This document shows positions 21,037 to 45,512 of a DNA stretch of 64,000 nt, in pieces. A program made the position numbers and the translations under genes. The notes below the pieces were generated by a model. It worked only from the letters and a program-made list of their open reading frames with translations, had not been told where the DNA came from and made no database searches. The stretch is taken from positions 1,612,001-1,676,000 of the forward strand of contig NZ_CP060497.1 in NCBI RefSeq assembly GCF_014334135.1. The letters are read 5' to 3'. Every line of letters starts with the position of its first letter. Positions within the stretch are counted from its first letter, which is position 1. The DNA comes from Olivibacter sp. SDN3 (GTDB lineage Bacteria > Bacteroidota > Bacteroidia > Sphingobacteriales > Sphingobacteriaceae).

Positions 21037-23484
21037 TTATGCCCCGACATTTATCAAGTCGGCAAATACGCCTCCCGCGGTAACCTCGCTTCCTGCACCA
21101 GGGCCTTTTACTACAAGTGGGCGTTCTTTATACCGCTCAGTAGTAAACGAAATAATATTGTCGCTTCCCGATAAATTGTAAAAAGGATGGCTTTCATCAA
21201 CCAATTCTAAATCAATTGATGCCCGACCGTTCACTAATTTACCGATATACCTGATGGCTTTGTTTTCCTTTGTTGCTTTTTCTTTTAAATCGTTAAAATA
21301 GGGATCTGCTTTTTTAAGCTCCTCATAAAAAGCAGCAACGGTAGGCGCCTGAAGGCAGGCCTCTGGTAAAATTGATCCCAATTGTACATCGGCTGGTTCG
21401 ATAACATCTCCACCATCTCTAGCTAAAATGAGCATTTTTCGCATAAAATCTGTGCCTCGCAAATCGTCCCTTGGATCGGGTTCGGTATAACCCAGTTCCT
21501 GTGCCGTTTTTACAATATCATGAAAAGAGGCATCGCCTGTGAAATTGTTAAAGATGTAAGATATGGTGCCCGAAAGGATGGCTTCGATGCGAATGATACG
21601 GTCGCCACTGGTCATCAAGTCTTTTAGCGTACGAACAATCGGAAGGCCTGCACCAACGTTGGTCTCATAGTAAAAGTCCACGCCATGCTTCCGTGCGGTA
21701 TCACGTAAAAGTTTATATTGTCCGTAGCTAGAAGAGTTGGCTATCTTGTTACAGGTAACAATGGAAATGTTCGATTCGAAAATCGGCAGGTAATAGTTTA
21801 TGGGTGCTTCACTGGCGGTGTTGTCAACGAAAATACAATTTGGAAGATTGAGTTTTTGCATCCGATCGATAAATATCGCCAGATCGGCTTTTTCTCCTTG
21901 TTGATCAAGCGCTTCCTGCCAGGAGTTTAGGTTAACCCCCTCGTTGTTAAAGAGCATTTTTCGAGAGTTACTAATTCCTACTATCTTCACCTGTATATCG
22001 TTATTGTCGCGCAGAAAATCTTTCTGCTCCAATAGTTGTCTGAAAAGTGTAGATCCAATATTGCCAGTTCCCAGACAGAACGCATGTAAGGTTTTTTTCA
22101 GCGCAGTAAAGAAAGCATCATGTACGGCGTTAAGGGCTTTTGAGAGGTCTGCCTGATTGATAATAACCGATATATTATATTCAGATGAGCCCTGAGCAAT
22201 TGCCCTGACGTTTATGCCGTTACGGCCTAAAGCATAAAATAATTTGCCCGACATCCCAGGTGTTTGTTTCATGTTTTCGCCAACAATGGCTAAAACAGAC
22301 AAATCATGCTCTATTACGGGTGCTTCCAGTTTTTTTGCGATTAACTCCAGCTCGAATTCCGACTCGATCAGTTGTTGTGCCCGAAGTGCATCTGTCGGAT
22401 GAATCGCAAAGGTGATGCTGTGTTCAGAGGACGATTGCGTGATAAGCACTACATTGATTTGCTTTCGTGCCAAAAGTGAAAATAGGCGTCCACTGAAACC
22501 TGCCTTGCCAATCATGCCACTACCCGTAAGGTTGATTACACTAATAGCGTTGATAGATGATATACCCTTGATGGGAAAGTGTGTTTGGCCGCTGTCCTGT
22601 TGAATAAGCGTGCCAGGGAAATTGGGGTTGAAAGTGTTCCTGATAACGATAGGCACCTTCTTCATGAATGCCGGAATCATGGTTGGAGGATAGATAACCT
22701 TGGCTCCGAAATAAGACAGTTCCATAGCTTCGGTATACGACAGTATAGGTAGTGGAAAAGCTTTCTTTACCATTCTAGGGTCTGCCGTAAGCATGCCATC
22801 CACATCGGTCCAGATCTCAATTGATTCTGCCTGTAGAGCGGCTCCAAAGATAGCCGCAGTATAATCGCTCCCTCCTCTACCAAGCGTTGTTACCCTACCG
22901 TTTTCATTAGAGGCGATATATCCGGTAACGAAAAGAAAGCGCTGGGGATGTTGTTGCACAAAGTGCCGGATAATTTGTTCACTCAGCGAAAGATCAACGC
23001 GCGCATTACCAAAAGAACTGTCTGTTTTAATGAGTGAAGTAGCTTCTACAAAGAGACTTTCCGGGAAGTACTGTTCGGCAATTTTTGAGATCAGAAAGGC
23101 AGCGCAGCGTTCTCCATAACTTACAATTAAATCCTTACTCTGCAGACTTAATTCCCGTAGATTAAGTACGCCCTGTAAAAGATCTTCCAGCTCATTTAGG
23201 AAGATTTTTAACTGGGTAAAAACAGGATTCTGATTTTTAAGCTGTATCAGCTGTTTCACAACGGTGAAGTGTTTCAGCTCCAGCTCTTTCAATGCGTGGT
23301 TAAAGCTTATGCCTTTTTCTGCCTCCTCGGCCATCTGAGTGAGCAGATTCGTAACCCCACTCATGGCCGATAGAACAACAACTGGTTTCTCTCCCTGGGC
23401 ATATCCTTGCTTTAAAATTTCCAGTAGGTTGTTGATGCTTTTCACTGAACCTACTGAGGTGCCACCGAACTTTAGTACCTTCAT
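21037..23484 (-). CDS. thrA: Bifunctional aspartate kinase / homoserine dehydrogenase I
   Basis: 815 residues. The aspartokinase half starts KFGGTSVGS (4-12) and includes the GRGGSDYTAAIFGAAL active-site loop; two ACT-type regulatory stretches follow (e.g. NLTGSGMIGKAGFSGRLFSLLARKQINV and GRNGINVRAIAQGSSEYN). The C-terminal homoserine dehydrogenase shows the NAD(P)-binding FCLGTGNIGSTLFRQLL (~468-484) and YYETNVGAGLPIVRTL. It commits aspartate to threonine synthesis and is expected to be inhibited by threonine. First structural gene of the operon; transcription is predicted to be attenuated through the leader at 23580-23721. Confidence 0.97.
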   Translation of the reverse strand: MKVLKFGGTSVGSVKSINNLLEILKQGYAQGEKPVVVLSAMSGVTNLLTQMAEEAEKGISFNHALKELELKHFTVVKQLIQLKNQNPVFTQLKIFLNELEDLLQGVLNLRELSLQSKDLIVSYGERCAAFLISKIAEQYFPESLFVEATSLIKTDSSFGNARVDLSLSEQIIRHFVQQHPQRFLFVTGYIASNENGRVTTLGRGGSDYTAAIFGAALQAESIEIWTDVDGMLTADPRMVKKAFPLPILSYTEAMELSYFGAKVIYPPTMIPAFMKKVPIVIRNTFNPNFPGTLIQQDSGQTHFPIKGISSINAISVINLTGSGMIGKAGFSGRLFSLLARKQINVVLITQSSSEHSITFAIHPTDALRAQQLIESEFELELIAKKLEAPVIEHDLSVLAIVGENMKQTPGMSGKLFYALGRNGINVRAIAQGSSEYNISVIINQADLSKALNAVHDAFFTALKKTLHAFCLGTGNIGSTLFRQLLEQKDFLRDNNDIQVKIVGISNSRKMLFNNEGVNLNSWQEALDQQGEKADLAIFIDRMQKLNLPNCIFVDNTASEAPINYYLPIFESNISIVTCNKIANSSSYGQYKLLRDTARKHGVDFYYETNVGAGLPIVRTLKDLMTSGDRIIRIEAILSGTISYIFNNFTGDASFHDIVKTAQELGYTEPDPRDDLRGTDFMRKMLILARDGGDVIEPADVQLGSILPEACLQAPTVAAFYEELKKADPYFNDLKEKATKENKAIRYIGKLVNGRASIDLELVDESHPFYNLSGSDNIISFTTERYKERPLVVKGPGAGSEVTAGGVFADLINVGA

Positions 23485-23579
23485 CTAATTTGTTTAATAA
23501 TCGTTTTATAAAAAGTTTTAACAGTAAAAGCCGCTAAAATGATAACACACCGCTCTTCGACTTTAAAAATTTGGTCATT

Positions 23580-23616
23580 AAAAAAGGCGCTTTCTCATGG
23601 AGAGAAGCGCCTTTTT
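23580..23616 (-). terminator. Attenuator terminator of the thr operon
   Basis: On the minus strand AAAAAGGCGCTT..CTC pairs with GAG.AAAGCGCCTTTTTT (one bulged A), loop TCCAT, followed by the T-run. It lies 33 nt after the Thr/Ile leader ORF and about 95 nt before the thrA ATG, the position of a transcription attenuator rather than the end of a gene. Confidence 0.8.
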
Positions 23617-23649
23617 ATGTCCTTTATCGCTGTTATTACAACATAAAAA

Positions 23650-23721
23650 TTACTTCCCTCGGTGACACGGTGTCCCGGTGGTGGTAATAATGGATGTTGT
23701 AATAATAGTGTTTGTTTTCAT
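23650..23721 (-). CDS. thrL: thr operon leader peptide (transcription attenuation)
   Basis: A 23-codon ORF, ATG at 23721 and stop TAA at 23650-23652, too short for usual gene calling. The product begins MKTNTIITTSIITTTGT: nine Thr and four Ile among the first 17 residues, the same logic as the E. coli thr leader. It is followed by the terminator at 23580-23616 and then thrA. When Thr-tRNA or Ile-tRNA is scarce, ribosome stalling in this run should favour an antiterminator and transcription of thrABC. The segment just after the Thr run contains the palindrome GACACCGTGTC, which may take part in the alternative fold. The ATG lies 15 nt after the candidate -7 box; no strong SD is seen. Confidence 0.85.
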   Translation of the reverse strand: MKTNTIITTSIITTTGTPCHRGK

Positions 23722-23736
23722 TTTTTGTTATTGGCA

Positions 23737-23768
23737 GTAAAGTAAGTGTTTTATTTTTAATTTATCAA
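23737..23768 (-). promoter_or_regulatory. thrLp: Candidate promoter of the thr operon
   Basis: On the minus strand TTG (23766-23768) and TACTTTAC (23737-23744) are spaced by 21 nt, fitting the Bacteroidota -33/-7 pattern with one change in the last base of TAnnTTTG. The start point would fall just ahead of the leader peptide ATG at 23721. Confidence 0.45.
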
Positions 23769-23908
23769 GATATATTGAAAAAAATTTAAAATTCTAAAAA
23801 CGCAGACGATTGTTTAAGGATACGTTTTTAAACGCGTGTATACCTAATTACGCAAGATGATCAATCAGCGATTTCTTGGCAGACATCACATACTGGATAC
23901 GCGGTACA

Positions 23909-45310: not shown

Positions 45311-45384
45311 CGGTCCGGACGGGACTCGAACCCGCGACCCCATGCGTGACAGGCATGTATTCTAACCAGCTGAACTACCGGACC
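45311..45384 (-). tRNA. tRNA-Asp (anticodon GTC), downstream copy
   Basis: The acceptor stem GGTCCGG/CCGGACC, anticodon arm CATGC-CTGTCAC-GCATG with anticodon GTC, T-arm GCGGGTTCGAGTCCCGT and discriminator G all fit tRNA-Asp. CCA is not encoded. It is identical along its length to the copy at 45439-45512. Confidence 0.95.
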
Positions 45385-45438: not shown

Positions 45439-45512
45439 CGGTCCGGACGGGACTCGAACCCGCGACCCCATGCGTGACAGGCATGTATTCTAACCAGCTG
45501 AACTACCGGACC
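45439..45512 (-). tRNA. tRNA-Asp (anticodon GTC), upstream copy
   Basis: Same sequence and cloverleaf as the next copy, 54 nt apart, in the same orientation and transcript. A promoter -7 box TATATTTG (45535-45542, minus) lies 22 nt upstream. Confidence 0.95.

Follow-up and report, generated by a model that had tools for sequence, protein, structure and literature searches.

In Escherichia coli, the thr operon is preceded by a leader in which a Thr/Ile-rich peptide, together with attenuation, serves as an amino-acid sensor, and Bacteroid-trp is likewise an attenuator. A 2004 survey by Vitreschak and others in FEMS Microbiology Letters reportedly touched on the Bacteroidetes, and we therefore claim no priority for what follows. 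Bacteroid-trp (RF01692) appears in the available part of its description as a candidate cis-regulatory motif in Bacteroidetes (PMC2864571). The accessible sections of two other studies report that long 5′ UTRs of Bacteroides thetaiotaomicron contain short ORFs which recall attenuation (PMC7366714), and give hints that leader peptides attenuate amino-acid operons in Flavobacterium psychrophilum, with pheA and hisG among the conserved structured 5′ elements (PMC9723704); the word 'threonine' is absent from the main text of the latter, as available. These three cases share with the locus described here the phylum and the general principle. According to the available part of PMC2965389, its authors were in 2010 aware of no leader-peptide systems beyond Proteobacteria and Actinobacteria, ermC aside, except their own finding in Firmicutes. 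The initial annotation of this DNA held that such attenuators are little described in Bacteroidota, which is roughly true of the literature found, but the idea itself is in print (PMC9723704, in its available sections). Among the literature matches listed, as far as their available text goes, no paper deals with a thr attenuator in Sphingobacteriaceae. Going by this literature, what is new about the locus is the instance and the comparative case that it provides in its group; the mechanism itself is known.

We analysed a window of 64,000 nt that is part of the 6.1-Mb single-contig genome of Olivibacter sp. SDN3. Upstream of thrABC it contains what is very probably a classical ribosome-mediated transcription attenuator, sensing charged tRNA-Thr and probably also tRNA-Ile. 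Attenuation of thrABC by a Thr/Ile leader had been proposed in the initial annotation, and conservation, predicted mutually exclusive structures and co-variation of the strands involved all support it. As with enterobacterial thrL, a short Thr/Ile-rich leader peptide lies directly upstream of thrABC with a bifunctional ThrA, an antiterminator is predicted to compete with a terminator, and the covariance model of the Rfam family Thr_leader (RF00506) matches from end to end (model positions 1-118 of 118, window positions 23711-23580 on the minus strand, 34.0 bits, E 1.2e-4 in a 501-base search). At E 0.01 or better, the same model matched 12 of 20 relatives, with up to 49.2 bits, and none of the other 8; three more relatives scored 46.3, 38.3 and 26.2 bits, the weakest of these with E 0.47. 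Unlike the enterobacterial leader, the window and all 23 same-architecture relatives scanned score below the curated threshold of 55 bits, which is compatible with common descent or with convergence, and the antiterminator strand is here located in the last leader codons. In our reading the locus works like the enterobacterial thr leader and lies outside the curated membership of RF00506.

A Thr/Ile-rich leader and a terminator upstream of thrABC

On the minus strand of the window, the order is leader ORF, 33 nt, terminator hairpin with its U run, 95 nt, thrA, thrB and thrC (Table 1). The ORF of 23 codons, the T-tailed hairpin and thrA were all found where the initial annotation had placed them; of its residue count for the first 17 residues, the four Ile held, but eight Thr were found and not nine. 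Between the last Thr and the stop codon lie six codons; the leader peptide had no match to any Pfam or NCBIfam model. The hairpin, AAAAAGGCGCUUCUC-UCCAU-GAGAAAGCGCCUUUUU, occupies 23616-23581, with the U run at 23585-23580.

Table 1. Features of the thrABC locus in the window
Feature	Position	Strand	Remarks
Leader ORF, thrL-like, MKTNTIITTSIITTTGTPCHRGK	23721-23650	minus	ATG at 23721, TAA 23652-23650; 23 codons plus stop
Regulatory codons, 8 Thr and 4 Ile, codons 3 to 17	23715-23671	minus	read from sequence
Segment 1 (protector strand) UUAUUACAACAU, Ile/Thr codons	23705-23694	minus	predicted 12-bp helix with 23644-23633
Antiterminator 5′ strand GAGGGAAGU, last leader codons and first stop base	23660-23652	minus	predicted to pair with 23608-23600
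Antiterminator inner extension UUUUUAUGU	23649-23641	minus	65.7% of cells paired, less conserved than core
Segment 2 AUGUUGUAAUAA, downstream of leader stop	23644-23633	minus	overlaps antiterminator extension at 23644-23641
Antiterminator inner extension, partner ACAUAAAAA	23620-23612	minus	predicted to pair with 23649-23641
Intrinsic terminator hairpin and U run	23616-23580	minus	23640-23575 folds at -21.2 kcal/mol, z -4.74
Antiterminator 3′ strand GCUUCUCUC, within terminator 5′ arm and loop	23608-23600	minus	predicted to pair with 23660-23652
thrA, bifunctional aspartate kinase/homoserine dehydrogenase I	23484-21037	minus	NCBIfam NF006959, 1016 bits; also Pfam
thrB, homoserine kinase	21010-20033	minus	NCBIfam NF002288, 375 bits
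thrC, threonine synthase	19936-18623	minus	TIGR00260, 287 bits

Bacteroidota-type promoters have the consensus TTG, about 20 nt, TAnnTTTG. Of 101 upstream regions, 11 contain a strict pattern built on this consensus, which occurs in 0.35% of shuffles. A relaxed pattern (21 of 101, against 6.8% of shuffles) and another variant with both boxes (14 of 101, against 1.6%) are both absent from the window. Elsewhere in the window, two tandem tRNA genes lie on the minus strand at 45311-45384 and 45439-45512, 54 nt apart and with 67.1 bits each; they were the only matches in a scan of the whole window with Rfam at gathering score.

The position of the hairpin bears on whether control could be translational, that is, whether the leader ribosome would expose or hide the thrA start, the hairpin being only part of that fold. 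Such an arrangement has precedent, as a structure hiding the ribosome-binding site replaces the terminator in some attenuators elsewhere (PMC9413887, in its available part). The hairpin in the window, however, has a T run and stands 95 nt before thrA, and the distance from the end of the stem to thrA varies from 13 to 196 nt over 101 loci (median 28), which suits a terminator better than a start-site blocker. We consider translational control very improbable.

Conservation of the leader and terminator

Regions upstream of thrA were taken from 80 named genome contigs, from 30 loci of a 121-genome family search, from 40 stretches of family genomes, from 60 representatives picked from a 296-genome phylum search, and from six further loci of the latter search. 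Among 219 loci, 215 had a usable thrA start; 191 of these were distinct, and in 189 the upstream region reached 300 nt or more. Two other aspartate kinases (L002, L003) and two loci in which no thrA start was found (L004, L203) were left out before the shuffle comparison, and two with less than 300 nt upstream (L037, L062) were left out of the leader and terminator counts. Three loci of doubtful leader or terminator assignment (L084, L160, L188) were dropped later and are still included in the means for ribosome position given below (104 loci). For the shuffle test, a leader was defined as an ORF of 8-60 codons in the 300-nt upstream region with at least 6 Thr in 15 residues. The terminator rule asked for a T-tailed hairpin before thrA with a folding energy of -12 kcal/mol or better. 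ThrA identity to the window was taken over the whole gene for some loci and over only about the first 66 codons for the 1-kb stretches, and the divide at 57% used below is hence rough. The closest named relatives by ThrA are Olivibacter (86, 84 and 83% identity), with O. sitiensis at 76%. The final 250 nt upstream of thrA in these four loci recur unchanged in four genomes that are listed under the genus of the window, which agrees with its placement in Olivibacter.

A Thr-run ORF was found in 80 of the 189 real upstream regions and in 6 of 3780 dinucleotide shuffles. The same test with other residues gave 34 regions for Ile (36 of 3780 shuffles), 14 for Leu and 0 to 5 for each remaining amino acid. 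When ThrA was at least 57% identical (105 distinct regions, window included), 100 regions had the leader, 102 the terminator and 98 both, so that the alignment of relatives proposed in the initial annotation came out in its favour: the Thr/Ile run and the hairpin are kept alongside a similar ThrA. Six of the seven regions failing the rule for both parts are near-misses. One has an Ile-rich leader with 2 Thr (L105), in three the Thr/Ile run sits in a longer open frame (L110, L128, L136), and in two the hairpin is present with a broken U run (L009, L024). The seventh, from Pontibacter ummariensis (L055), is alone among the 105 in having no leader at all. Its ThrA is 68% identical and its best hairpin (-11.8 kcal/mol) is below the terminator threshold; perhaps the operon was transferred without its switch. 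A locus of Chishuiella changwenlii (L059), a genus which we take to belong to Flavobacteriales, has a ThrA 63% identical and a Thr/Ile leader and terminator of the window's kind, and here the operon was perhaps transferred together with its switch.

With ThrA below 57% (84 regions), the leader rule selected 37 regions, the terminator rule 17 and both rules 7; two loci just under the divide (L145, L146) do have leader and terminator. No such leader was found in the named loci of Runella, Dyadobacter, Telluribacter and Arcicella, nor in the named MAG loci of Cytophagales, Cytophagaceae and Chitinophagaceae. Among the 40 stretches from family genomes, three (L147, L148, L153) have neither the leader nor a strong terminator, and four of one genus code (L149-L152) have a thr leader of the second kind described below, with a hairpin on the stop codon. 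The 57% cut therefore differs from the family boundary and excludes some genomes of the same family that do not have the window's architecture. What is kept, across many genera around Olivibacter and Pedobacter, is a classical Thr/Ile attenuator, in a phylum for which the literature found describes few such switches.

To see which residues and codons are retained, 82 pairs of leaders of equal length and at least 60% alike were compared. Thr was aligned with Thr in 455 comparisons, and the codon differed in 99 of these; in 73 more comparisons Thr stood opposite another residue, 42 times Ile. All four Thr codons are in use among similar leaders. These counts bear on the possibility that the hairpin is an ordinary terminator and that the Thr/Ile ORF arose by chance, the operon being constitutive or controlled elsewhere. 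T-tailed hairpins are indeed common between genes, but recurrence of the leader by a fixed rule in 100 of 105 regions, the rarity of such Thr-rich ORFs in shuffles, the synonymous changes of Thr codons and the co-variation of leader and terminator strands (see below) leave this explanation hardly any probability.

The composition of the run varies. Ile exceeds Thr, or nearly so, in leaders of Sphingobacterium hungaricum (L016) and five other loci (L099, L102, L104-L106), and in three leaders (L020, L067, L111) 10 to 12 of 15 residues are Thr and Ile is scarce. From these sequences, the mixture of Thr and Ile that is sensed seems to drift by lineage.

Predicted competing RNA structures

The initial annotation had proposed folding the region in search of mutually exclusive structures, and the predictions for the window bear it out: antiterminator and terminator share the strand 23608-23600 and are predicted to exclude each other. 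The RNA from 23670 to 23597 folds into the antiterminator at -20.1 kcal/mol (z -3.05; 2 of 200 shuffles were as low). Once the 3′ arm of the terminator is included (23670-23575, -28.8 kcal/mol), the terminator fold wins, so that the predicted switch would need kinetic coupling. A 12-bp helix between segments 1 and 2 (the 1:2 helix) would complete the classical three-way switch in the window. As this helix is predicted to form there without translation, termination would be the default. In a 13-row alignment of near relatives, 89% of the cells of the helix are paired and 4 of its 12 pairs changed on both sides. The exact strands are now defined for mutation.

The palindrome GACACCGTGTC, which the initial annotation had put forward as the possible switching segment, is present in the window. 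This role is not borne out, as near relatives do not conserve the palindrome, and we rejected it because its columns vary among them. The predicted switching strand is instead GAGGGAAGU, just before and into the stop codon.

A structure of this kind could in principle be read by something other than a ribosome (a riboswitch, a T-box or an RNA-binding protein), and the strong overall fold of the leader RNA (23730-23575, z -7.75) would agree with that, but the window has no riboswitch or T-box match at gathering score, the best match in a permissive search of 23400-23900 is Thr_leader, and what the leaders have in common is a run of codons for the products of the operon itself, which makes such a reader scarcely credible.

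Co-variation of leader and terminator strands

If the leader strand and the terminator arm pair as antiterminator, each leader should pair best with the arm of its own locus. Over 101 loci, the mean duplex energy was -16.1 kcal/mol for matched leaders and arms, -14.0 kcal/mol with the arms of other loci and -9.9 kcal/mol with shuffled leader strands. For the 95 distinct pairs, the matched mean was -15.9 against -13.8 (sd 0.23) after permutation, and none of 5000 permutations reached the matched value. As the permutation ignores shared ancestry, the existence of several arm types is the better argument. Leader strands and arms co-vary as GGAGGAAG with CUUCCUCC, GAGGGAAGU with GCUUCUCUC, GCUAUCGGGA with UCCCGAUAGC, UAUCGGGAGC with GCUCCCGAUA, and GGAAGGU with GCCUUCC, and the 3′ arm of the terminator changes along with the arm type. 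By group means, leaders of the CUUCCU (78 loci), CUUCUC (5 loci) and UCCCGA (9 loci) types pair best with their own arms. Leaders of the CUUCCG type (5 loci) pair better with CUUCCU arms (-14.2 against -12.5 with their own), as do the mixed remaining leaders (4 loci, -13.9 against -12.8).

Column-wise counts in the 13-row alignment are weaker. For the terminator, 55.6% of cells are paired and a slide by +3 has a higher covariation score, a poor count which in our opinion is due to mis-registration of the 3′ arm. The antiterminator core has 88.9% of cells paired, with covariation only modestly above shuffles and slides, which match or exceed it on several measures. The argument for terminator and antiterminator therefore rests on the duplex energies and the permutation test.

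Predicted effect of ribosome position

We folded the nascent RNA of 104 loci up to the 3′ arm of the terminator, hiding the stretches covered by a ribosome. On average, the predicted fraction of the terminator 5′ arm paired upstream was 0.68 with the ribosome at the last Thr codon and 0.73 at the middle Thr, and the arm was at least half paired in 91 and 101 of the 104 loci, respectively. With shuffled spacers and the ribosome stalled at the last Thr, the value was 0.42. It fell to 0.06 with the ribosome at the stop codon, a value kept low in part by the short stretch of RNA then left upstream of the arm, and was 0.58 with no ribosome. In the window, the corresponding values were 0.80 (last Thr), 0.80 (middle Thr), 0.47 (shuffled), 0.27 (stop) and 0.27 (no ribosome), the last because UUAUUACAACAU is predicted to pair with AUGUUGUAAUAA. 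This protection is not general: in 76 of the 104 loci, half or more of the arm stays paired upstream even with no ribosome, and two of the five Olivibacter rows (L007 and L008, 0.69 and 0.90) are among them.

The mechanism that we propose for the window is as follows. When tRNA-Thr and tRNA-Ile are plentiful, the ribosome would reach the leader stop codon and cover the antiterminator strand 23660-23652; the terminator 23616-23580 would then form and RNA polymerase would stop 95 nt before thrA. Under shortage of Thr or Ile, it would instead stall in the codon run 23715-23671, which would break the 23705-23694/23644-23633 helix and free GAGGGAAGU to pair with GCUUCUCUC before the 3′ arm of the terminator is made, resulting in read-through. 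Translation of the leader, stalling of the ribosome and the effect on transcription are what we infer from the arrangement of the parts. Attenuation needs a ribosome close behind RNA polymerase, and a functional test of the switch would therefore also probe transcription-translation coupling in Bacteroidota, on which we know of little work.

Other amino-acid leaders and a second kind of thr leader

Leaders of this sort are not restricted to thrABC in the same genome. Upstream of trpE (L243) lies a leader ORF, MTVETKDIRNWWWHAKRSAGSIY, with three Trp in a row, and upstream of pheA (L245) a Phe/Tyr-rich one, MKYTTAYWFFGYFYFSSKSRD, each with a T-tailed hairpin by eye. The His-rich leader ORF upstream of hisG (L240), MIKVFTHHIHFHHRPCGDM, has a hairpin near its stop codon with no clear T tail by eye. 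Directly upstream of two ilvD-type genes of the same genome there is no such leader. A class-wide search for hisG gave a match in 36 of 80 genomes and a readable gene start in 14 of 29 fetched loci; in nine of the 14 there is a leader that reaches 4 or more His within 12 residues, accompanied, as judged by eye, by a T-tailed hairpin. From the trp, phe and his leaders and the hisG survey, attenuation seems to be in common use here.

A second architecture was explored in 102 loci with ThrA below 57% identity, L145 and L146 being set aside and 20 loci having been fetched later. In 40 of them (among L149-L204 and L220-L233), at least 3 of the last 9 leader codons are Thr, and the final Thr lies 1 to 4 codons ahead of the stop. 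A compact hairpin lies on the stop region of these 40 (mean z -3.18; -3 kcal/mol or better in 34), and its arms show matched differences between groups: ACCCC/GGGGU, ACAACCC/GGGUUGU and ACGGGG/CCCGU. The stop region of 101 window-type leaders gives no hairpin signal (mean z 0.10). In 38 of the 40 (26 of 28 earlier and 12 of 12 later loci), no T-tailed hairpin upstream of thrA reaches -12 kcal/mol, L195 and L204 being the two exceptions, and folding of the first 60 nt beyond the stop is scarcely stronger than expected by chance (mean z -0.41). Applied to small groups of these leaders, RNAalifold recovered the stop-codon hairpin in most groups and no consistent terminator. A CATAT-type motif, chosen after viewing these sequences, follows within 45 nt downstream in 21 of the 40, against 1.4% of shuffles and 1 of 104 window-type loci.

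Both kinds of leader are thus Thr-rich and lie upstream of thrA. They differ in that the Thr codons of the second kind end 1-4 codons before the stop, whereas six codons follow the last Thr in the window, which also has a strong terminator. One tentative reading, which we hold to be rather unlikely, is that Thr leaders are an old and widespread layer in this bacterial class, with two mechanisms: terminator against antiterminator in Olivibacter, Parapedobacter, Pedobacter, Mucilaginibacter and kin, and, in many more distant genomes, a terminator-poor switch at the stop-codon hairpin. Leaders of the second kind may depend on Rho, or the terminating ribosome may itself exert the control. An argument for Rho from base bias was discarded, the excess of C over G after the stop (459 to 321 in the 40 loci) being too weak. 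If true, the stop-codon-hairpin mechanism would be an undescribed form of leader-peptide control. The contrast between the two kinds of thr leader allows a direct test of whether the mechanism has changed while the sensor peptide stayed the same.

Some of the leaders with a stop-codon hairpin, L168-L172 among them, show, by eye, a weak A/U-rich hairpin before a T run (-6.9 kcal/mol in L170), and because of such hairpins a weak terminator is possible in some leaders of this kind. In another locus, a near-threshold match to the Flavo-1 RNA (L130:297-424, 39.7 bits, threshold 42) lies in the same stretch as the thr leader, outside the leader itself.
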